This document shows positions 29,305 through 39,863 of a DNA stretch of 64,000 bases, one piece after another. The first letter of the stretch is position 1. Each line of letters opens with the position of its first letter. A program made the translations under genes and the position numbers. This DNA comes from Celeribacter naphthalenivorans (GTDB taxonomy: Bacteria > Pseudomonadota > Alphaproteobacteria > Rhodobacterales > Rhodobacteraceae), in the NCBI RefSeq assembly GCF_020524585.1, contig NZ_JAIVLK010000007.1, positions 62,001-126,000 of the forward strand. The letters are read 5' to 3'. The notes below the pieces were generated by a model that saw nothing but the letters and a program-made list of their open reading frames with translations, did no database searches and had not been told where the DNA came from.

Positions 29305-31059
29305 ATGATCCATTTTTCTGCTCACAGCGCGTTTGCGCGTGTTTTCTCGTTCACCTTCCGTCTTTGGATGCGCCAAAAGGGGAAGGTTGTCACCATTCTG
29401 GCCTTGGTTCTGATCTCCGCGGCCTCCGATCTCTCCATACCTGTTTTCACGGGACGCCTCGTTGATGCGGTGGCCGCGTCGGAGACGCCTTGGCCCGCCT
29501 TCGGGGCGCTTTTGGTGTTTGGTGTTCTCTCCGTCTTCGCCAAAATCCAAAGCTATTTTGCCATCATCGATCTGACCATCCCTTCGATGCGCGCCGCCGA
29601 AGCCGAAGCCTTCGCCCATATTCAGCGGCTCCCCGCCGACTGGCATGCGAATGCCTTTGCCGGTTCCACCGTGCGGAAGATCACACGCGGGGCCTGGGCC
29701 TTGGATGAAATGGCAGACCTTTTGTTGTTGGCACTGTTGCCCTCGGCGCTGATCCTTTTGGGCACGATCGGAACGCTGACGGCGTTTCGCTGGGAGGTGG
29801 GTCTGGTCGCCGGGATCGGCGCGCTTGTGTTCCTGACCCTCTCCCTGTCGTTGACGCTGTTTTGGGTGGCGCCTGCGGCGCGTTTGGCCAATGCGCAAGA
29901 CAGCCGTGTGTCCGGCGCGCTGGCCGATGCGGTCACCTCCAACGGGGTTGTGCGGGCCCATGCGGGCGAGCTGCGCGAAGACCGGCGGCTGGGCCTTGTT
30001 CTGGACAAATGGGCACATCGCAGTCGACGCACATGGCGGCGCGGCACAGTGTCCGGCCTGTCGCAGGACATGACGATCTGGGCCTTGCGGGCGCTGGTTC
30101 TGGGCGGGGCTCTTGTTGCCTATACCCGTGGTCTGGCCAATGCGGGCGAAATTGCCTTTGTGGTCTCGGCCCTCGGGATGCTCGACGGCTATTTGCGCCA
30201 GATGGGCAACCATGTGCGCGGGCTGCAAAAGGCGGTCAACGATGCCGAGGAACTGGTGGCCCTGATGGCTGTCACCCCCGAAACCTCTGTCGCAAAAAGA
30301 CCCGAAGCTACCTTGCCGCCCCGCGCGGCGGCATTGGCGTTCGATCATGTGGATTATGGCTACGACGGGGCTGCAACACCGCTTTTTACCAAGCTGGATG
30401 TTGCCATTCCTGAGGGCCAGAAAGTCGGATTGGTTGGGCGGTCCGGTTCGGGCAAAACCACTTTCGTGAAGCTGATCCAGCGAATTCACGAGATCAATGA
30501 CGGCAGCATCACATTGGGTGGCGTCGATATCGCGCGCGTCCCCTTGGAGGCGCTGCGCCAACACATCGCGCTTGTCCCGCAAGAGCCTGTTTTGTTTCAC
30601 CGCTCTTTGGCCGAGAACATCGCCTACGCGCGTCCCGGCGCATCGATGCAGGAGGTCCAGGAGGCTGCTGAGCGCGCAGGGGCTCTCGATTTCATCGAGC
30701 GTTTGCCCAAAGGCTTTGGCACAAAGGTGGGCGAGCGGGGCGTCAAACTTTCGGGGGGAGAGCGGCAGCGGGTCGCCATCGCGCGCGCCTTTTTGTCCAA
30801 CGCCCCGGTTCTGATCATGGATGAGGCGACATCGTCGCTCGATTCAGAAGCCGAGGCCAAGGTGGCGCAGGCCGCAGAGCGGTTGATGGAGGGGCGCACC
30901 ACTTTGGTGATTGCGCACCGATTGGCGACGGTCGAACGGATGGACCGCATCCTCGTCTTTGATCGTGGACGGATCGTCGAAGACGGCACGCCTTTGGAGC
31001 TCATGGCACGCGAAGACGGCCTCTACCGCGCCCTGCGCGCCCGGCAGGCTTTGAGTTGA
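29305..31059 (+). CDS. ABC exporter, fused membrane and ATPase domains
   Basis: A 584 aa half-transporter. Residues 20-310 form the six-helix type IV exporter membrane domain. Residues 335-580 form the ATPase: Walker A GRSGSGKTT, Q-loop LVPQEPVLFH, signature LSGGERQRVAIARAF, Walker B VLIMDEATSSLD and H-loop IAHRLATV. It works as a homodimer or with an absent partner. The substrate cannot be predicted; relatives export lipids, peptides or drugs. It ends 7 bp from the convergent hisI stop. The ribosome site is weak. Confidence 0.88.
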   Translation: MIHFSAHSAFARVFSFTFRLWMRQKGKVVTILALVLISAASDLSIPVFTGRLVDAVAASETPWPAFGALLVFGVLSVFAKIQSYFAIIDLTIPSMRAAEAEAFAHIQRLPADWHANAFAGSTVRKITRGAWALDEMADLLLLALLPSALILLGTIGTLTAFRWEVGLVAGIGALVFLTLSLSLTLFWVAPAARLANAQDSRVSGALADAVTSNGVVRAHAGELREDRRLGLVLDKWAHRSRRTWRRGTVSGLSQDMTIWALRALVLGGALVAYTRGLANAGEIAFVVSALGMLDGYLRQMGNHVRGLQKAVNDAEELVALMAVTPETSVAKRPEATLPPRAAALAFDHVDYGYDGAATPLFTKLDVAIPEGQKVGLVGRSGSGKTTFVKLIQRIHEINDGSITLGGVDIARVPLEALRQHIALVPQEPVLFHRSLAENIAYARPGASMQEVQEAAERAGALDFIERLPKGFGTKVGERGVKLSGGERQRVAIARAFLSNAPVLIMDEATSSLDSEAEAKVAQAAERLMEGRTTLVIAHRLATVERMDRILVFDRGRIVEDGTPLELMAREDGLYRALRARQALS

Positions 31060-31066
31060 GACAGTA

Positions 31067-31540
31067 TCAAAGCTGTGTCGGGTTCGGCGCGTCTCCGTAG
31101 GCGGCCACCGGATCAAATGTCTTTTGATCTTCAACGAACACCAAGGGGGCTCCAGCCTGCGCGCCATGGGGCACGGCGCGATAGAAACACGACCGATAGC
31201 CCACGTGACAGGATGCGCCCGATCCGGTGACGTCAACGCTGAGCCAAAGCGCATCCTGATCATCATCAATGCGCGCCTCGACGACCTTTTGCACAAGCCC
31301 GGAGGTTGCGCCCTTGTGCCAAAGAACCTGTCGCGCGCGGCTAAAGTAATGCGCTTCGCCGGTCTCAATCGTCAGCCGAAAGGCCTCCTCCGTCATCCAT
31401 CCCAGCATCAGAACGTCTCCGGTCGCCGCATCCGTGGTGATGCAGGGCAGTAAGCCATTGTGATCGAATTTCGGGGCAAGTTCGGTACTCTCTTCGACCT
31501 GTTCGATTGTTTTGCGCGGGGCGAAGTTCATTTGTGTCAT
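31067..31540 (-). CDS. hisI: Phosphoribosyl-AMP cyclohydrolase paralogue (zinc-regulon type)
   Basis: A 157 aa HisI: FDHNGLLPCITTDAATGDVLMLGWM, SRARQVLWHKGATSG, DDDQDALWLSVDV and GASCHVGYRSCFYR carry the conserved Asp and Cys ligands for metal. The enzyme opens the purine ring of phosphoribosyl-AMP in histidine synthesis and normally needs zinc. It has no his genes around it and is divergent from a COG0523 GTPase across a Zur-like site, the known context of hisI paralogues made during zinc starvation. It keeps its cysteines, so it may have higher affinity or accept other metals. Confidence 0.9.
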   Translation of the reverse strand: MTQMNFAPRKTIEQVEESTELAPKFDHNGLLPCITTDAATGDVLMLGWMTEEAFRLTIETGEAHYFSRARQVLWHKGATSGLVQKVVEARIDDDQDALWLSVDVTGSGASCHVGYRSCFYRAVPHGAQAGAPLVFVEDQKTFDPVAAYGDAPNPTQL

Positions 31541-31572
31541 CGGCGTCTCTTTTCAGCTGTTGCGAATAGTAA

Positions 31573-31587
31573 TGTTATAACGTAACA
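31573..31587. promoter_or_regulatory. Zur box in the hisI / COG0523 divergent promoter
   Basis: TGTTATAACGTAACA is an imperfect palindrome (TGTTA and TAACA arms, inner GTTATAAC) at the middle of the 88 bp space between the two divergent starts. It closely resembles the TGTTATA-type Zur operators known from proteobacteria. The flanking genes are classic zinc-starvation genes, which supports repression by zinc-loaded Zur of both directions. Confidence 0.85.
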
Positions 31588-31628
31588 ACGCATGGCCAAA
31601 TCCAGACGCATTGTAAAGGGCACGCACT

Positions 31629-32777
31629 ATGGCATTGGAGGACATGCGCCTTCCGGTCACCTTGCTGACCGGTTTCCTTGGCGCCGGGAAGACAACTCTG
31701 TTGACTCACCTGATCCGTGATCCGCAGGCGGGGCGGGTTGCGGTCATTATGAATGAATTCGGCGATGTGGCGCTGGATCACGATCTGATCGAGGAGGCGA
31801 CAGAGGAGACGGTGCTATTGCCCTCCGGCTGCCTGTGCTGCGCGATCCTTGGCGATTTGGCGACAACGCTTGGGACGCTGGAGGCGAAGCGCGCGGCGGG
31901 TGATTTGCACTTCGACAGGGTCATCATCGAAACCAGCGGCATCGCTGATCCGGGGCCAATCATTCACACGCTGGTCGCGGACCGGCAGATCGCTCAGGCC
32001 TTTCGGCTGGATGGCGTCGTGACGCTGGCGGATGCCGCGACGGGCATGAAGACGCTCGATCAACAGCCAGAGGCGGTGCAGCAGGTGGCGATGGCCGATG
32101 TGCTGATCCTGACGAAAACCGATCTGGTCGACGATTTTGATCTGATCCGGTTCGAGACGCGTCTGGCGGGGATCAACAATACCGCCCGGCGCATCCGATC
32201 AAGCCACGCGCAGGTGCCGTCCGGCGCGCTTTTCGGACTGTCCGCGATGCGCATGGGTGTGTCGCATGCTGAGATTAACACCTGGCTCGGGGACATGTCG
32301 GATGCGACGCAACGTGACCCTCTGGCCGGGCTGTCTGGTCTGAAAGCCACGCTTTCGGCTCCTCTGACATTCAACGCTATGCCTTCGGTGGCGCAGGGCC
32401 GTCACGATCACCGGATCGCATCGGCCTCGATTGAGGTGACAGAGCCCATTCCCGCCACGGTCTTTGACTTTTGGCTGAACACATTGATCGCGCTCCGGGG
32501 GCCGAACATCCTGCGTATTAAGGGCATTCTGCACGTCGAGGGCGCGGCCTATCCCTTTGTGATCCACGGGGTTCAGCATATTTTCGACGCGCCTGTGCCG
32601 TTGAAAAACTGGTCCAGTACCGACACCACAAGCCGTGTGGTTGTTATCGCGCGCGATATGGAGGAAGCCGACCTCAAAGCCAGTCTCAACATGCTTCTGT
32701 CGCGGCCGCCAAAGAGCGCGCCGGTGCATGATCTGGCCAGTGGCATGATGGTCGAAACCCTCGAGATGCCATTTTGA
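31629..32777 (+). CDS. COG0523 (CobW-type) metal-chaperone GTPase
   Basis: A 382 aa G3E GTPase. It has Walker A GFLGAGKT (residues 15-22), the metal-binding CLCC motif (68-71), the guanine-specificity variant TKTD and a C-terminal CobW domain with a GRHDHRI metal-like motif. COG0523 proteins of zinc regulons are thought to deliver zinc to client enzymes such as HisI or ThrS when zinc is short (ZigA/ZagA type). First gene of a six-gene run behind the Zur box. A GGAGGAC also precedes a Met at residue 6, but it is too close to serve that start. Confidence 0.92.
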
Positions 32778-32833
32778 TCCGATGCGTGCCTGACCTGTCT
32801 CATCAAATCGCCCCGCCAAAGAAAGACCCCGCA

Positions 32834-34780
32834 ATGATCCATATTCGCCTGCCCGATGGCGCCACCCGCTCGCTTCAGCCCGCCAGCACCGCCGCCGATC
32901 TCGCCGCCTCCATCAGCCCAAGCCTGGCCAAACGCACGGTGGCGGCGCGGGTCGATGGCAAGCTCACCGATCTCTCCGTGCCTTTGTCGGATGGGGCGGA
33001 GGTGGAGCTTGTCACGCGCGATGAGCCGGCGGCGCTTGAGTTGATCCGGCATGACCTGGCCCATGTGCTGGCCGAAGCCGTACAGGCGCTCTGGCCCGGC
33101 ACGAAAACCGCCATCGGCCCGGCGATTGAGCATGGGTTTTATTATGACTTCGAGCGCGACACGCCCTTCACCCCGGAGGACCTGCCTGCGATTGAGACGA
33201 AGATGCGCGAGATCATCGCGGCGAAAATGCCTTTCAACTGTGAGGAGTGGACCCGCGACGCGGCGCGCGCGCATTTCGAGGCGGCAGGGGAGCCCTATAA
33301 ATTGGCGTTTCTGGAGGCGATCCCTGAAGGTGAGCCGGTGACAATTTACCGTCAAGGTGCGTGGCTCGATCTCTGTCGTGGCCCGCATATGCGCCACACT
33401 GGCGATGCGGGCAGCGCCTTTAAATTGACCCGCGTAGCGGGGGCCTATTGGCGGGGCGACAGCAACAACCAGATGCTCAGCCGTATTTACGGCGTGGCCT
33501 TTGCCGACAAGCCTGCCCTTGAGGCGCATCTCACTATGATGGCCGAGGCCGAAAAACGCGACCACCGCAGGTTGGGGCGCGAGATGAACCTTTTTCACTT
33601 CGAAGAGGTCGCGCCCGGTTCGGTCTTTTGGCATGCGAAGGGCTGGCGGTTGTTTCAGACCCTGATTGGCTACATGCGGGATCGGCAGGAGGCGGCGGGC
33701 TATATCGAGGTGAATTCGCCCGACATCATGGACCGCGCCCTTTGGGAAACCTCCGGCCATTGGCAGAACTATCGCCAGAACATGTTCCTCGCCAAAACCG
33801 AAGATGACCGCGACTATGCTCTGAAGCCGATGAACTGCCCCGGTCACATGCTGATCTACGGGCAAGGCGTGAAAAGCTACCGCGATCTGCCCCTCAAACT
33901 GGCCGAATTCGGCAAGGTGCATCGCTATGAACCCTCGGGCGCGCTTCATGGGCTATTGCGTGTGCGCAGCTTTACCCAAGATGACGCGCATATCTATTGC
34001 ACGCCCGAACAGCTCACAGAGGAATGTTTGAAGGTCAACGATCTGGTGCTGTCGATCTACCGCGACTTCGGGTTCGAGGATGTGCGGATCAAGCTTTCCA
34101 CCCGGCCCGAGAACCGCATCGGCAGTGATGAAAGCTGGGATCGCTCCGAAGCGGCGTTGCGCGCCGCGCTGGATCAGGCGGGGCATCCCTATACGATTTT
34201 CGAGGGCGAAGGCGCGTTTTATGGGCCGAAGCTGGAATATGTCCTGCGCGACGCCATTGGGCGTGACTGGCAATGCGGCACGTTGCAGGTGGATTTCAAC
34301 CTGCCGGAACGGTTCGGGACAACCTATGTCGCGCCTTCGGGGGACAAAATGGTGCCGGTCATGCTGCACCGTGCGCTGTTCGGGTCGCTTGAACGCTTCA
34401 CGGGCATTCTGATCGAGCATTATGCCGGGCACCTGCCGCTCTGGCTCGCGCCAGTGCAGGTTGTGGTCGCCACGGTCACCGGGGCGGCGGATGAGTGGGC
34501 TATGGAGGTTGCGAAAGCCTTGAAAACCGCCGGGCTGCGTGCCGAGACCGACCTGCGCAACGAGAAGATCGGGTACAAGGTGCGCGAACACGCGCTGCAA
34601 AAAATCCCGGTTCAGATCGCCCTTGGTGCCCGTGAAGCCGAAGCGCGCAGCGTCTCGATCCGCCGTCACGGCACGGACAAGACGCAGTCTTTGCCACTGG
34701 AGGAGGCGCTTCAGCTGCTGGTTGCGGAGGCACGGGTGCCGGGGGTGACGGGCCACAGTCTTTGCGTGGGGAAACCATGA
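32834..34780 (+). CDS. thrS: Threonyl-tRNA synthetase paralogue in zinc operon
   Basis: A 648 aa class II synthetase with N-terminal TGS domain (1-60), editing domain (about 70-230; [11 protein letters not shown] and YDFERD), catalytic core and C-terminal anticodon domain. The three zinc ligands of ThrRS are kept: Cys in MNCPGHM, His in TQDDAHIYC and His in MLHRALFGS. ThrS duplicates beside COG0523 genes are known from zinc-starvation loci; a duplicate may allow threonyl-tRNA synthesis with scarce zinc. I infer it is a second copy from context and cannot see the housekeeping gene. It starts 56 bp after the GTPase gene and overlaps the thiolase gene by ATGA. Confidence 0.93.
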
Positions 34781-35955
34781 AGAACAAAGCTTTTATCGTT
34801 GGGGCCTATGAGCATCCGACACGGGATGCGATCGACATTCCATTGGCGCAACTGCATGCCGAAGTGGCGGCGGGGGCGCTGGCGGATGCCGGGTTGAGCC
34901 TTGCGGATGTGGACGGGTACTTCTGTGACGGTGATGTAGCGGGCTGGGACGCGCCCGGATGCGGGCCGTTTTCGATGGTCGAATATCTGGGACTGAACCT
35001 GCGCCATCTCGACACCACCGAAAGCTGGGGGTCGGCCTATATCAACCACGTCGCCCATGCCGTGCAGGCCATCGAGGCGGGTAAATGCCGCGTGGCGCTG
35101 ATCACGCAGGCCGGTCGCCCGCGCGCGGAGCGTAAATCCCCCGCGCAGATGCACAGCGAACAGACGCAAAGCGCGTATGAGGCCCAGTTCGAATTGCCCT
35201 ATGGCCCGGTGGTCACCAACATGTACGGTATGGTGGCCGCCCGTCATATGCACGAACACGGCACCACGCCGGAGCAACTGGCCTGGATCAAGGTCGCCGC
35301 TTCGCATCACGCGCAGTACAATCCCAACGCCGTCCTGCCCAAGGTGGTGACGGTCGAAGATGTGCTGACCTCCCCCATCGTGGCGACGCCGCTGCACCGG
35401 TTGGATTGCTGTGTGATCAGCGATGGTGGCGGGGCGCTGGTTGTCGTGCACCCGGACGTGGCACGCGACTTGGATCGGCCCAAAATCACCCCCATCGGCG
35501 CGGGGTTCACCGTCAAGCATCTCAATGGCGGCTATTTCGACATTCTGGCCTCGGGCGGCGTGAAATCCGGCGCAGCAGCCTTTGCGCAGGCGGGCGTCAC
35601 GCCGCAGGACATCCAATATGCCTCGATCTACGACAGCTTTACGATCACCGTTCTGGTGCAGCTTGAAAACCTCGGGTTCTGCGCGCCGGGACAGGGTGGG
35701 CGTTTCGTGGCGGAGGGCAACCTGATTGCGGGGGTAGGACGTCTGCCGGTCAACACCGATGGGGGCGGGCTGTGCAGCAATCATCCCGGCAATCGCGGCG
35801 GCATGACCAAGCTGATCGAAGCGGTGCGCCAGTTGCGTGGTGAGGCCCATCCCGCTGTTCAGGTGCCCGATTGTCATTTGGCACTGGCCCATGGCACGGG
35901 CGGGCAACTTGGATCACGACACGGCAGTGCCACGCTTGTTCTTGAGAGGGTTTGA
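34777..35955 (+). CDS. Non-canonical thiolase-fold (SCP2-type) protein
   Basis: A 392 aa thiolase-superfamily protein. The start [36 protein letters not shown] and the end [24 protein letters not shown] are typical of SCP2-type members paired with DUF35 proteins. At the position of the nucleophilic cysteine it reads TESWGS (residues 81-86), so classical thiolysis or condensation is unlikely; Cys-lacking relatives such as Ltp2 act as aldolases on acyl-CoA. The next gene encodes the DUF35 partner. Translation is coupled to thrS by a four-base overlap, placing it in the zinc operon. Confidence 0.82.
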
Positions 35956-35956
35956 G

Positions 35957-36367
35957 ATGTCCGCTGAGATGCCTGAACAAAATCCCATCACCGCGCCGGA
36001 GCCGACCGCAGAGACTGCTGCCTATTGGGACGCCGCCGATGAGGGGCGGCTGGTGTTGAAACGCTGCCTCGGCACGGGCAAGGCCTTTCACCCGCCGCGC
36101 ACGATCAGTCCCTTCACCGGGCGGGACGATACCGATTGGATCGAGGCGGAGGGCACAGGGGAAATTTATGCGCTCAGCGTCTCGAAACGTCAGGGCGCGG
36201 TGCATTGCATCGCTTACATTGCCCTCACAGAAGGCCCGATCTTCCTGAGCGCGCTGACCCGGTGCGACCTGTCCGCGGCAAAGATCGGGCAAAGGGTCCA
36301 CGTCGTCTTTGAGCCTTGCGCAAACGGCAGACGTGTCCCCATGTTTACCACGGTTGCGACCGATTGA
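35957..36367 (+). CDS. DUF35 (OB-fold) protein lacking its zinc ribbon
   Basis: A 136 aa thiolase partner. DUF35 proteins usually have a rubredoxin-like zinc ribbon (CxxC, then CPxC) before an OB fold. Here the equivalent segment is RCLGTGKAFHPPRTISPFTG: only Cys37 remains and the other three positions are Thr40, Ser51 and Thr54. The OB part follows (WIEAEGTGEIYALSVSKR to VHVVFEPCANGRRVPMF). It starts one base after the thiolase stop, so the two presumably form a complex as in ChsH2-Ltp2 or BbsAB systems. Loss of the ribbon fits expression under zinc starvation. Confidence 0.82.
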   Translation: MSAEMPEQNPITAPEPTAETAAYWDAADEGRLVLKRCLGTGKAFHPPRTISPFTGRDDTDWIEAEGTGEIYALSVSKRQGAVHCIAYIALTEGPIFLSALTRCDLSAAKIGQRVHVVFEPCANGRRVPMFTTVATD

Positions 36368-36393
36368 AACAAGATCACACAGAGGACTATCCC

Positions 36394-36867
36394 ATGCAGA
36401 TCACCCAAGACGACATCGAAAACGCTCTCATCACCTGGGGCGAGGGCAAGATCGCCATCTCGAAAGCTTTCGAAGAGGGCGGTATCGACGCGGCACGCGA
36501 GGTGGCCTCCGCCAATCTCGATGAGTACTACGGCTATAACCTTGGCCCGGTGATGTTCAAACCGACGATGGCCAGCGGAGCGCAGACGTTTCGCCCGACG
36601 AAAGCGGGCGCTTTGGCCTATTTCTGTGGCCATTCCGAAGAGTACCCGCTCGACAATGGCTTTGCGATCATGGGCTGGCGCGCGATGGAGCGGATCACCT
36701 CGGCCAGCTTCATTCAGGGCGATGTCGCCATGTGGATGGGCTGGATCAAACTGACGAATAAGGACGGATCGGTCACCACCGTCGACAAGAGCTTTGGCTA
36801 CAAAAAGGATGCGGCCGGCAAGATGCGCATCGTGCTGCACCATTCGTCTTTGCCCTACCAACCGTAA
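36394..36867 (+). CDS. NTF2/SnoaL-like protein in zinc operon
   Basis: A 157 aa soluble protein with an NTF2-like pattern: helical N-terminus (ITQDDIENALITWGEGKIAISKAFEEGGIDAAREVA), then beta-rich segments ending DKSFGYKKDAAGKMRIVLHHSSLPY. I recognise the family shape but no defined enzyme. SnoaL-like folds act as isomerases, dehydratases or cyclases or bind small acyl groups. It is 26 bp after the DUF35 gene and 29 bp before the DUF1826 gene, in the same run. The chosen ATG has the AGAGGA-type site; a longer frame into the DUF35 gene is rejected. Confidence 0.72.
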   Translation: MQITQDDIENALITWGEGKIAISKAFEEGGIDAAREVASANLDEYYGYNLGPVMFKPTMASGAQTFRPTKAGALAYFCGHSEEYPLDNGFAIMGWRAMERITSASFIQGDVAMWMGWIKLTNKDGSVTTVDKSFGYKKDAAGKMRIVLHHSSLPYQP

Positions 36868-36896
36868 CCCTCCAAATATCAGAAAAGAGTGCCCGG

Positions 36897-37544
36897 ATGT
36901 TCCTTGAAATCAGCGACAATCTCACCGATTGCACCTCGGTCGTCTCAACACCTAAAGGCCTTTTGGACATTCACGAACCGGCCTGCGCGGCGGCGATCTG
37001 GGAACGCAATCCGCTGCCGCGTTTTCAAAACTGGATCGAGGCCTTGCCGCCGGAGCAGTTACCTAAGGCACGCCTGATCTTGCGGTCCGATGTGGTCTGT
37101 GATGCGCTGATGCACGTGGCATGCCAGTGCGGGACACCGGAGTGCCCGGAGCGCGACATGCTGATCGAAGATGCCTCTGCGCTGGCGGCGATTTTTGCCA
37201 ATGTCATGCAGGCCGAATACCTGCGGCTGCGGCTTGATGTCGTGGACACAAATGCCTGTCGCAAGTTCCACATCGACGCCGTGACAGCCCGGCTGGTCTG
37301 CACCTATCGCGGGACAGGCACGCAATACGGTCTGTCGGAGAATGGCCAAGATCCTGTGGACATCGTCACGGTGCCGACCGGCGCACCGATTGTCTTGCGG
37401 GGGACGCGCTGGCCTGAGACGCCGCTCTCAAGCCTGTTGCATCGCTCGCCGCCGATTGCCGGAACCGGGGAGACGCGGCTCCTTTTGGTGCTTGACCCGG
37501 TGGCGGATCCAGCGGAGGAGGCAGAGGGCGCTTACCTGCATTGA
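36897..37544 (+). CDS. DUF1826 family protein
   Basis: A 215 aa soluble protein of unknown function. The motifs DIHEPACAAAIWERNPLP, RLRLDVVDTNACRKFHIDAVTARLVCTYRGTGTQY and the end LLHRSPPIAGTGETRLLLVLDP match the DUF1826 family. That family is repeatedly found beside COG0523 genes in zinc regulons. The conserved HxD in KFHIDAVTAR resembles a metal-binding motif and could be part of a catalytic or zinc site. It is the last gene of the zinc operon. Confidence 0.85.
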   Translation: MFLEISDNLTDCTSVVSTPKGLLDIHEPACAAAIWERNPLPRFQNWIEALPPEQLPKARLILRSDVVCDALMHVACQCGTPECPERDMLIEDASALAAIFANVMQAEYLRLRLDVVDTNACRKFHIDAVTARLVCTYRGTGTQYGLSENGQDPVDIVTVPTGAPIVLRGTRWPETPLSSLLHRSPPIAGTGETRLLLVLDPVADPAEEAEGAYLH

Positions 37545-37554
37545 GGCGCTAGAG

Positions 37555-38571
37555 CTATTCGGACCCTGCCGTTGCAAACCGGGCGCGATAGTCGCGCGGT
37601 GAGAGGGAGAAGCGGCGGCGAAAGGCTTTGCGCATCTGTTCGTCCGACTGGAACCCGGCCTTATACGCCACGCTTTTCAGCGGCAGGTCGGTGTCGAGCA
37701 GCAAGGCCTTGGCGCGGTCACAGCGCAGGCCTTCCAGCATGGTCATCGGTGAGGCGCCGAATTCCGACGTGAACGCCCGCGACAGGCTGCGCACGCTCAT
37801 GCCCTGCGCGCGGGCAATTTCATCGAGTGTCAGAGGCTGATCCAGCCGCTCGCTCATCCAGTTCAACACATCGCTCATCCGGCTTGTCCCCGACATTTGC
37901 CCGGCCAGCAAGGTGCTGAACTGAGATTGCCCGCCCGGTCGTTTGAGGTACATCACCATGTCTCGCGCCACGGCCAGGGCGATGTCGCGCCCGTAGTCCT
38001 GTTCGACAAAGGCCAGGGTCAGGTCAATCGCCGCCGTCACACCGGCGGAGGTCCAGAAATTGCCCGCCTGCACAAAGATCGCATCGGGGTCCACCTGCAG
38101 CTTTGGAAACCGTTGGCGCAGCCTGTCGGCATAGTTCCAATGGGTCGCGGCACTCTGGCCCTCCAAAAGACCGGCCTCGGCCAGAAAGAAAGAGCCGGTG
38201 CATAAGGCCGCGCAGCGCGTGACGTCGCGCCCATTTTCGCGGCACCAGGCCACCAGCCTGTCTTCATTGCGCAGCACCTCTTCGATCTTGGCCGCGCCTG
38301 CGATCAGGACCGTTTCTGGGGTGCCGAGGTCGTCGAGGGCGACCGTGGCGCCCAGCGTCATCAGAGTGTCGGAGGGGATCGGGCCAGCGGTAGGGGCCGC
38401 GATGGTGACATCATAGCCGCCCGTATGCCCGGCGGCGGCAAGATGCTGCGACGCATAGCTTAGAACGCTCAGAGGGCCTGTTGCCTCCAAGGTCTTGAAG
38501 CCGGGGTAAACAATCAGTGTCACCTGTCGTCGCTGGTTCATCCCGGGGGCAAGGTCGTGATCTGTCGGCAT
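37555..38571 (-). CDS. GlxA-family AraC-type regulator with DJ-1/PfpI domain
   Basis: A 338 aa regulator. Residues 15-190 form a DJ-1/PfpI (class I amidotransferase-like) domain with the Cys in [17 protein letters not shown]. Residues 230-330 carry the AraC DNA-binding domain ([40 protein letters not shown] to [16 protein letters not shown]). GlxA-type regulators usually control metabolism of amines, betaines or aldehydes. It is divergent from the alcohol dehydrogenase, its likely target, and converges on the DUF1826 gene with a 10 bp gap. I chose the ATG at 38571 for its GGGGAA site; 38541 is possible. Confidence 0.87.
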
Positions 38572-38699
38572 CGTGTCGTGGTTCCCCGGATGTGGCCAGT
38601 ACGGCCCGGTGTTTGGCCAAATGGGCGGGGTCAGATCGCTGGACCGCCCGAGGTGATACTGTAACATCTCGGGATCACAGATTAACAGAGAGAACAGCC

Positions 38700-39863
38700 A
38701 TGAAAATCCGCGCTGCCGTTGCTTGGGAAGCCAACCGTCCGCTCGAAATCGAAGAGATCGATCTGGACGGCCCCAAGGAAGGCGAAGTCCTCATCCGCAT
38801 CGTCACCACCAGCCTGTGCCACACCGACATGTTCACCCTGTCGGGCGCCGATCCCGAGGGTCTGTTCCCGGCGGTGCTGGGCCATGAGGCCGTCGGCATT
38901 GTCGAAGAGCTTGGGCCGGGGGTCACCTCGGTGAAACCGGGCGATCACGTCATCCCGCTTTACACGCCAGAAGACCCGAACTGTCCCTATATCAAATCCG
39001 GCAAAACCAACCTCTGCCAGACCATCCGCAAGACCCAAGGCCAGGGCGTCATGCCCGATGGCACCTCGCGATTCAGCTATAAGGGCAAGATGATCCATCA
39101 CTATATGGGCACCTCGACCTTCGCCGAATACACGGTTTTGCCGGAGATTGCGCTTGCGAAAATCTCGAAAGAGGCGCCGCTTGCGAAGGCTTCGGTCATG
39201 GGCTGTGCGATCCCGACCGGCATGGGTGCGGTGCGCAACACCGCCAAGGTCGAAGCGGGGGCGACGGTCGCCGTTTTCGGTTTGGGGGCTGTGGGCATGG
39301 CCGTCATTCAGGGCGCCAAGATGCAAGGCGCGTCGCGCATCATCGGCATCGACACCAACCCGAACAAATTCGAACTGGCCCGGAGCCTCGGCGCCACCGA
39401 ATGCATCAACCCGGCGGATTTCTCCAAGCCGATTCAGGACATCATCATCGAGATGACCGATGGCGGCGTGGATTATTCCTTTGAGTGCATCGGCAACGTC
39501 AATGTCATGCGCTCGGCGCTGGAGTGTTGCCACAAAGGTTGGGGCGAATGCACGGTGATCGGCGTCGCAGGTGCCGGTGAAGAAATTGCCACCCGTCCGT
39601 TCCAGCTTGTCACGGGACGCGTCTGGCGCGGGTCGGCCTTTGGTGGCGTTTTGGGCCGGAGTCAGTTGCCGGGAATGGTCGATGAATGGTTGCGTGGCGA
39701 TTTCGATGTCGATCCCTATATCACCCACAATATGACCCATGATCAGATCAACACCGCCTTCGATCTGTTGCATGCCGGGAAGTCGATCCGCTCCGTGATC
39801 CACTTCCAGCCGGGTGAAACGATGCTGGCCAATGATTTGCCGGGCGTCATCGTGCCCGCGTAA
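38700..39863 (+). CDS. frmA: Class III alcohol dehydrogenase / S-(hydroxymethyl)glutathione dehydrogenase lacking half the structural zinc site
   Basis: A 387 aa medium-chain dehydrogenase very close to FrmA throughout: [68 protein letters not shown] and [20 protein letters not shown]. It oxidises S-hydroxymethylglutathione from formaldehyde. Catalytic zinc residues Cys40, His62 and Cys about 169 are kept. In the structural-zinc loop (residues 91-106, [16 protein letters not shown]) only Cys95 and Cys106 remain; the other two positions are Asp92 and Ile98. The C-terminus is about 17 residues longer than E. coli FrmA. It is divergent from a GlxA-type regulator. Confidence 0.9.

Follow-up and report, generated by a model that had tools for sequence, protein, structure and literature searches.

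Closest described systems and the Celeribacter locus

In the Zur regulon clusters described by Haas et al. (2009; PMC2770081) and in the review PMC6103462, genes encoding COG0523 proteins, HisI, ThrRS, CysRS, FolE2 and DUF1826 are found near Zur boxes, as they are at the loci considered here, with DUF1826 named among the Zur-cluster genes in the legend to Figure 4 of PMC2770081. Here we describe a predicted zinc-starvation gene set of this type from Celeribacter naphthalenivorans. It lies within a 64,000-nucleotide stretch of DNA (G000:C7:62001-126000, hereafter the window) of a 4.36 Mb genome assembled in 29 contigs. A predicted Zur box is followed by six genes, of which the three middle ones encode a thiolase-like protein, a DUF35 protein and an NTF2-like protein. 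The presence in this set of a metal-free-type carbonic anhydrase (CA) and of an aldolase-like pair that has lost its zinc site suggests a way of sparing zinc in carbon metabolism.

Two groups of characterised enzymes are most relevant to the middle genes. The COG4337 iota-CAs are active once stripped of metal and have no metal bound, and an advantage in metal-poor water has been suggested for them (PMC8132391). Anabaena all2909, an enzyme of this group, is inactivated by mutation of Thr106, Tyr124, His197 or Ser199 and can dispense with Lys180; there is no mention of Zur, operons or starvation in the available passages of that paper (PMC8132391). The second group comprises the side-chain aldolases Sal and Ltp2, in which the base is the Tyr of a YDxF/Y motif, Sal being described as unable to carry out thiolysis (PMC12329534).

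The Zur box and its regulon

The dyad GTTATAACGTAAC at 31574-31586 has 0 mismatches and separates hisI2 from the six co-directional genes, the intergenic gaps between which are 56, -4, 1, 26 and 29 bp in order. This agrees with a first-pass annotation, made from the letters of the window alone, that had proposed just such a division, with gaps of -4 to 56 bp, and all seven frames are open at the coordinates that it gave. Its dyad is real, although placed one base off, at 31573-31587 rather than 31572-31586. Reversed, the window box (GTTACGTTATAACAT) differs by 1 base from GTTACGATATAACAT, the znuA box of Paracoccus denitrificans (Table 7 of PMC5387054), and the P. denitrificans zur/znuA promoter is bound by Zur in gel shifts (PMC5387054).

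With up to one mismatch, the motif GTWAYRWWATAACAT has nine matches in the 4.36 Mb genome, compared with one for a reversed-motif control. The window box accounts for two, which overlap, and a second COG0523 gene for two more; there is one at zinT and one, with 1 mismatch, at zur-znuC/znuA, a locus (L137) comprising a Fur-family gene, an ATP-binding cassette (ABC) ATPase gene and znuA; the remaining three look accidental, lying over a HupE start codon, at a dioxygenase gene and at an alcohol dehydrogenase (ADH) gene. When up to two mismatches are allowed, the 64-kb window contains just two overlapping matches, both at this box (control 0). Across 34 thiolase loci (521,918 bp) there are ten box matches, some overlapping, at seven loci (reversed-motif control 1), and every one lies at the head of an operon containing the thiolase–DUF35 pair. 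The Zur boxes that had been expected upstream of such neighbourhoods are thus found, in three arrangements, although L094-L096, L097-L098 and L107-L109 are near copies and the seven loci therefore represent about three lineages. Two Rhizobiaceae (Pararhizobium and Flavimaribacter) have a COG0523-thiolase-DUF35 operon preceded by the window box in exact reverse complement.

The likeness to the P. denitrificans site, the genomic regulon and the boxes heading pair-containing operons uphold the original designation of a Zur-type zinc operon. Zur control is well supported and we predict it with high confidence; it would entail binding of Zur to the box and zinc-dependent expression. A terminator scan of 31000-38750 returned ten terminator-like sites (6.4 expected), none of them at the thrS2-thiolase junction. 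A promoter scan of the same interval returned zero promoter-like sites, the Zur box included, a result with no bearing on an internal promoter. Purifying selection is seen in the five genes tested (dN/dS 0.04-0.16).

A metal-free-type iota carbonic anhydrase

The NTF2-like gene, listed initially as lacking a known zinc role, is recognisable as that of a COG4337-type iota-CA. Residues 3-156 of its product match the NCBIfam family NF047901, ‘metal-independent carbonic anhydrase’, and the same residues match crystallised all2909 (7c5v) with 47% identity. T58, Y76, H149 and S151 correspond to T106, Y124, H197 and S199 of all2909, whilst K132 corresponds to Lys180. Identity as a metal-free-type CA is well supported by these likenesses, and a role as a zinc-free CA backup, with activity predicted to be independent of metal, is very likely.

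Among 244 genomes of the order, 26 have iota-CA; among 398 of the phylum, searched with a stricter cut-off, 15 have it, and three of these (the genome of the window included) were already in the order set. Counted as one per genome outside the window, and excluding additional places at G145:C4 and G174:C36 and second ones in G635 and G922, this gives 37 loci, five of them zinc-linked. Four of the five are Rhodobacterales loci with hisI2, box and COG0523, thrS2 and DUF1826 being variable. The fifth, G635, from outside the Alphaproteobacteria, has COG0523, a zur-like gene and a 0-mismatch box 38 bp upstream of iota-CA, together with a long gene whose start we take to be dihydroorotase-like. Sixteen box matches occur in the 37 loci (704 kb), 11 of them in the five zinc loci and five, at 0.95-7.5 kb from iota-CA, in four others. 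General Zur regulation of iota-CA is ruled out by the 5/37 count.

Plasmid records include 26 with iota-CA and 44 with the thiolase; six of the former, chosen for closeness, and one of the latter were examined. All four examined plasmids with an 81-88% identical iota-CA carry it in a zinc-locus context and three of the four have a box: in Phaeobacter inhibens M631 (1 mismatch), Tritonibacter mobilis A3R06 (1) and Thioclava sp. FTW29 (0), iota-CA is found with hisI2, thrS2 and the box. On the Paracoccus seriniphilus plasmid iota-CA is accompanied by COG0523, a thrS2 split into two pieces and DUF1826, and no box is matched at this threshold. More distant copies in Stutzerimonas and Peteryoungia (49-53% identity) have no zinc context within the stretch examined. 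Several public plasmid records label iota-CA relatives (L242, L243, L244, L247) ‘phosphoribosyl-AMP cyclohydrolase’, perhaps because hisI2 adjoins. In P. inhibens M631 (L242:2588-3394) hisI2 overlaps at its end with ribD, and farther along this conjugative plasmid are uptake genes of the TonB/ExbBD and ABC types; in G105 (L075:10627-11091) the thrS2 match within the corresponding zinc operon is confined to the C-terminal part (query residues 483-637).

The thiolase–DUF35 pair

The structures closest in sequence to the thiolase-like protein are 4u4e, Sal (9myr) and Ltp2 (6ok1), and the AlphaFold2 model of its DUF35 partner (predicted local distance difference test score, pLDDT, 91) has as its best folds the DUF35 domains of Ltp2 and Sal. 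The Tyr base is kept, as Tyr285 of YDSFT in the window protein and as a Tyr in all compared rows. No Cys is found at the place of the thiolase nucleophile in the window protein or its clade, the two positions being taken by Ser and His; among the compared rows only the outlying L125 has Cys at both positions, presumably the thiolase Cys residues. The thiolase-like protein is probably no thiolase. Near the place of Ltp2 Tyr344, it has an SNHPG stretch that is a candidate for the catalytic acid.

Only Cys37 is left of the four zinc-ligand Cys residues of the DUF35 ribbon, and all 19 clade members likewise keep one of the four; the complex is therefore expected not to require zinc. We consider a zinc-free pair with aldolase-type activity to be likely. 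Two ideas about the Cys residues were ruled out: their loss is not a mark of zinc operons, since it marks the whole clade and also occurs elsewhere, and the protein is not the zinc-free duplicate of some zinc-ribbon DUF35 encoded elsewhere in the genome, where there is only this one PF01796 match.

Judged by its distribution, the pair is an accessory cassette. Neither gene is matched in the corresponding operons of one plasmid each from Phaeobacter, Tritonibacter, Thioclava and Paracoccus, nor in four other Rhodobacterales zinc loci. In Phaeobacter, Tritonibacter and Thioclava, thrS2 is followed directly by iota-CA, whereas in Celeribacter the pair stands between the two. The earlier view that all three middle genes are locked into the zinc operon therefore stands for iota-CA, which recurs in zinc loci, but not for the pair, and a six-gene order conserved across genomes is not what is seen.

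Besides the Celeribacter arrangement, the pair is Zur-linked in two others. In Pseudooceanicola and Pseudodonghicola the order is hisI2, box, cysS2, thrS2, Fur-family gene, folE2, pair, iota-CA, DUF1826, with no COG0523 match at these pair loci (Pfam assignments of cysS2 are from Pseudooceanicola, those of the Fur-family gene and folE2 from Pseudodonghicola). In Pararhizobium and Flavimaribacter the order is box, COG0523, pair, AraC gene. At the Rhizobiaceae loci L107 and L109 the AraC gene and a gene for an aminoacyl-tRNA editing domain lie 3' of the box-COG0523-pair unit, and two intradiol dioxygenase genes and an Fe-ADH gene lie 1.3-4.6 kb upstream of it.

In a tree of 41 rows, the zinc-linked pairs fall in a supported clade of 19 that also contains 11 non-zinc members; three changes of the zinc label are needed, at least two of them forced by supported branches. 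Three rows of this tree (L142, L145 and L147) make up an artefactual long branch, having been translated from the wrong strand, whilst L139, L144, L148 and L149 (length filter) and L127 (partial) were left out. The loci closest to that of the window are those of Celeribacter L095 and L096. L094, labelled as a Kangiellaceae metagenome-assembled genome (MAG), is syntenic with the window at 92-99% identity over the nine genes compared and is therefore probably mis-binned. The thiolase frame of L095 ends at 279 aa, although the protein match extends beyond this point.

Genomic context and the substrate

The evidence on action at hydroxycinnamoyl side chains is genomic context. Ten of the 11 non-zinc clade members lie in aromatic, hydroxycinnamate-like clusters; the eleventh, from Pararhodobacter (L099), has no such cluster around the pair. 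In 8/8 relatives from Oceanospirillaceae, Pseudomonas, Pantoea and Bradyrhizobium (two strains of one Marinomonas species included) the pair follows genes for an enoyl-CoA hydratase and an ADP-forming ligase, accompanied by a MarR gene and, in five of the eight, by a short-chain dehydrogenase/reductase (SDR) gene. The pair follows an AMP ligase gene in Ruegeria and on a Phaeobacter plasmid, in the latter case about 6 kb from pobA, pcaD and pcaQ, and in Paracoccus rhizosphaerae it is preceded by genes for a tannase/feruloyl esterase and a tripartite ATP-independent periplasmic (TRAP) transporter. Such neighbours are the company expected for hydroxycinnamate degradation, for which a hydratase and an aldolase would suffice without a 3-keto step.

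The window genome has a cluster on C1 encoding MarR, SDR, hydratase, TRAP, MarR, AMP ligase, amidohydrolase and acyl-CoA dehydrogenase, which resembles the CouO arrangement (PMC4737184). Two CouO-like copies, 98% identical, are found in this genome, at G000:C1:211759 and C4:356668. The CouO-like amidohydrolase has HxH at 13-15, His158, His200 and Asp252, which we take to be the usual metal set of the amidohydrolase superfamily.

Four of the eight zinc-linked genomes have an intact gene for a close CouO-like enzyme (71-100% identity; twice in G000), in all four beside an AMP ligase gene, and Pararhodobacter has one too. Where the pair lies in an aromatic cluster, 0/10 genomes have an intact CouO-like gene, compared with 5/9 where it lies elsewhere (Fisher p 0.011, uncorrected for kinship): eight of the ten have no match at E 1e-10, the Bradyrhizobium gene has an in-frame TGA, and in Ruegeria a stop-interrupted remnant lies about 6 kb upstream of the pair. 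A comparable AMP-ligase cluster in Pararhizobium lacks the amidohydrolase, and that genome has just distant relatives (34%) of the CouO-like enzyme (row L227, on the wrong strand, was disregarded in the AMP-ligase comparison). An ADP-ligase hydroxycinnamate cluster, sought in the zinc-linked genomes, was not found there; AMP-ligase clusters were found instead. Our best guess is that the pair cleaves side chains without zinc, relieving or replacing the CouO-like amidohydrolase, a proposal that, as regards both the hydroxycinnamate substrate and the replacement of CouO, is tentative and rather less likely to be right than wrong.

Gene content of the locus

The features of the locus are listed in Table 1.

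Table 1 Features of the predicted zinc-starvation locus, in window coordinates
Feature	Position	Strand	Evidence
hisI2, second phosphoribosyl-AMP cyclohydrolase	31067..31540	-	PF01502 5.7e-29
Predicted Zur box ATGTTATAACGTAAC (15-mer)	31572..31586	none	motif matches, regulon, cross-genome boxes
COG0523 GTPase, CobW type, GCLCC motif	31629..32777	+	PF02492 7.4e-48, PF07683 1e-18
thrS2, threonyl-tRNA synthetase	32834..34780	+	TIGR00418 3.7e-204; Cys335 in NCPGH kept
Thiolase-fold enzyme, probable retro-aldolase	34777..35955	+	NF006010 3.5e-205; PDB 4u4e, 9myr (Sal), 6ok1 (Ltp2)
DUF35 partner, ChsH2-type ribbon and OB fold	35957..36367	+	PF12172/PF01796; 1/4 zinc-ribbon Cys
COG4337-type iota carbonic anhydrase (NTF2-like)	36394..36867	+	NF047901 4.4e-53; PDB 7c5v 2.2e-43
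DUF1826 protein, Zur-cluster neighbour	36897..37544	+	PF08856 8.3e-54

The thrS2 gene is a putative second copy, so named from its place in the zinc operon. Another hisI is found in the genome, at C6. In HisI2, Asp replaces the Cys of the DCD motif of the other HisI, as it does in L074, L075 and L078 (rows L094, L097 and L077, on the wrong strand, were disregarded). The predicted structure of the DUF1826 protein (pLDDT 38.5) is of no use. Beyond the operon, a dyad at 38653-38665 lies between an AraC/GlxA-type gene and a class III formaldehyde dehydrogenase gene and recurs in L094-L098 and Tritonibacter, differing from the Zur motif by 3 mismatches in the window, 2 in L094-L096 and 1 in Tritonibacter; the same gene pair is also found 3' of the zinc operon in Tritonibacter and Paracoccus seriniphilus.

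Proposed explanation and its rivals

The explanation that we favour, and consider reasonably likely, is that of a Zur-repressed zinc-sparing operon whose middle genes encode zinc-free enzymes of carbon metabolism. When zinc is present, Zur would occupy the box and silence both hisI2 and the COG0523-to-DUF1826 unit; when zinc is absent, both would be expressed. Iota-CA would then supply bicarbonate once the zinc-type beta-class CA fails, whilst the thiolase-like protein and the Cys-poor DUF35 protein would form an Ltp2/Sal-like complex with zinc in neither subunit, carrying out retro-aldol cleavage of a 3-hydroxyacyl-CoA to acetyl-CoA and an aldehyde. The likeliest substrate would be the hydrated CoA ester of a hydroxycinnamate (p-coumarate, ferulate), and the pair would relieve or replace the metal-type CouO-like amidohydrolase of the genome’s own hydroxycinnamate-type cluster. 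The initial suggestion of a zinc-free substitute for an acyl-CoA step was thus the right kind of idea, the particular step being one that we infer. That, in phenylpropanoid catabolism, Zur exchanges an amidohydrolase that depends on metal for an aldolase complex that is zinc-free and non-homologous, adds a metal-free CA and so reroutes lignin-derived carbon via zinc-free chemistry is doubtful as a whole.

Several observations weigh against this explanation. A looser 13-mer with 2 mismatches has nine matches in the window against 5.2 expected, a non-significant excess (11 of 100 shuffles are as high). The iota-CA score of 179.7 misses the 350-bit naming cut-off of NF047901, which is a labelling threshold and not a defining feature, and 32 of the 37 loci have no zinc link, so iota-CA is not zinc-regulated in general. 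A search of the genome for CAs of the beta class alone found one, which may therefore not be the sole other CA. In the thiolase-like protein the known catalytic acid (Ltp2 Tyr344, Sal Cys304) is unmatched, Ser standing at the Cys304 place in YDSF, and C304S killed Sal (PMC12329534); for this reason we do not file the protein as Ltp2 or Sal but only liken it to them in its working. Cys-poor DUF35 proteins also occur elsewhere without zinc context, and the catabolic clade members lack the Cys residues too, so their loss was not driven by this operon. As to the substrate, a zinc requirement of CouO is deduced from its family and ligand residues; the CouO-like gene is present in 4/8 zinc-linked genomes compared with 0/8 hydratase-ligase genomes (p 0.077); the four zinc-linked genomes without a close CouO-like enzyme (one a 2.6 Mb MAG) can have no use for the pair as its backup; and the zinc-linked genomes have no close orthologue of the ADP ligase of the catabolic clusters (identities of 28-33%, or no match).

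The pair might instead be a passenger, a transferred thiolase–DUF35 cassette transcribed by read-through and having no role in zinc starvation, unlike iota-CA. Its absence from four Rhodobacterales loci and four plasmid operons fits this view, as does its mostly catabolic and sometimes plasmid-borne occurrence elsewhere, but a passenger would hardly be expected in three distinct zinc architectures, with at least two changes of the zinc label on supported branches, or to be under purifying selection. In two Rhizobiaceae, moreover, no catabolic gene intervenes in the box-COG0523-pair unit, the dioxygenase and Fe-ADH genes lying 1.3-4.6 kb upstream, and we regard the passenger explanation as unlikely. 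To a similar degree it is improbable that the pair replaces some other metal-dependent carbon-carbon step on an ordinary metabolite, such as a retro-aldol cleavage of the 3-hydroxy-3-methylglutaryl-CoA lyase type, rather than acting on a hydroxycinnamate. The co-members HisI2, ThrRS2, CysRS2 and FolE2 do serve core metabolism, and the zinc-linked genomes lack a close ADP ligase and half of them a CouO-like enzyme; relatives at 79-86% identity are nonetheless located in aromatic clusters, which argues for a shared substrate class.

That the pair makes or degrades a small zinc-binding compound, or frees zinc from a phenolic chelator, would be consistent with induction by zinc starvation, but there is neither a transporter nor a recognised ligand-synthesis gene among the six operon genes and the contexts elsewhere are degradative; synthesis of a small ligand, an early suggestion for this locus, gained no support and the whole idea is highly improbable. 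It is also very unlikely that the iota-CA homologue is something other than a zinc-free CA in vivo, whether through a different function or through metal dependence of the COG4875 type. The missed naming cut-off could be read in this way, COG4875-type relatives are called metal-dependent (PMC8132391) and a Burkholderia enzyme carried zinc, yet the protein is 47% identical to the metal-free enzyme of known crystal structure and has the full set of four essential residues.

Comparison with known systems

The operon shares the idea of zinc-free replacement with PMC2770081 and PMC6103462. CAs appear there as Zur targets, the gamma class in PMC2770081 and Bacillus subtilis ytiB in PMC6103462, whereas the window encodes one of the iota class. 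In their available text, neither source contains ‘thiolase’, PMC2770081 contains neither ‘DUF35’ nor ‘NTF2’, and PMC6103462 does not contain ‘COG4337’. No description of Zur control of iota-CA or the thiolase–DUF35 pair was found in the titles and abstract openings retrieved, subscription literature being mostly uncovered, or in passages of PMC2770081, PMC10957091, PMC9337993, PMC6103462 and PMC8425729. The metal-free iota-CAs would gain a predicted biological trigger, zinc starvation, in culturable marine bacteria, and zinc sparing, if the proposal is true, would widen from swaps between related enzymes (HisI, FolE, ribosomal proteins) to a non-homologous complex of carbon catabolism.

With Anabaena all2909 and Bigelowiella Bn86287 (PMC8132391) the window protein has in common the domain, the HHSS motif and the catalytic residues; the passages of that paper state no link to zinc starvation, whereas the window gene sits in a predicted Zur operon. 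The Ltp2-ChsH2 and Sal-Shy steroid side-chain aldolases (PMC12329534) share with the pair a thiolase fold combined with DUF35, the Tyr base and the lack of a thiolase nucleophile, but the second catalytic residue is different and the window DUF35 keeps one of four zinc ligands. With the CouO-type amidohydrolase, the step in common would be removal of acetyl-CoA from the side chain. CouO, however, belongs to the amidohydrolase superfamily, takes a 3-keto ester and yields an aromatic acid, whereas the pair has a thiolase fold, and the non-homologous VceAB of SYK-6 provides a published precedent for replacement at the CouO step (PMC4737184, PMC9618137).

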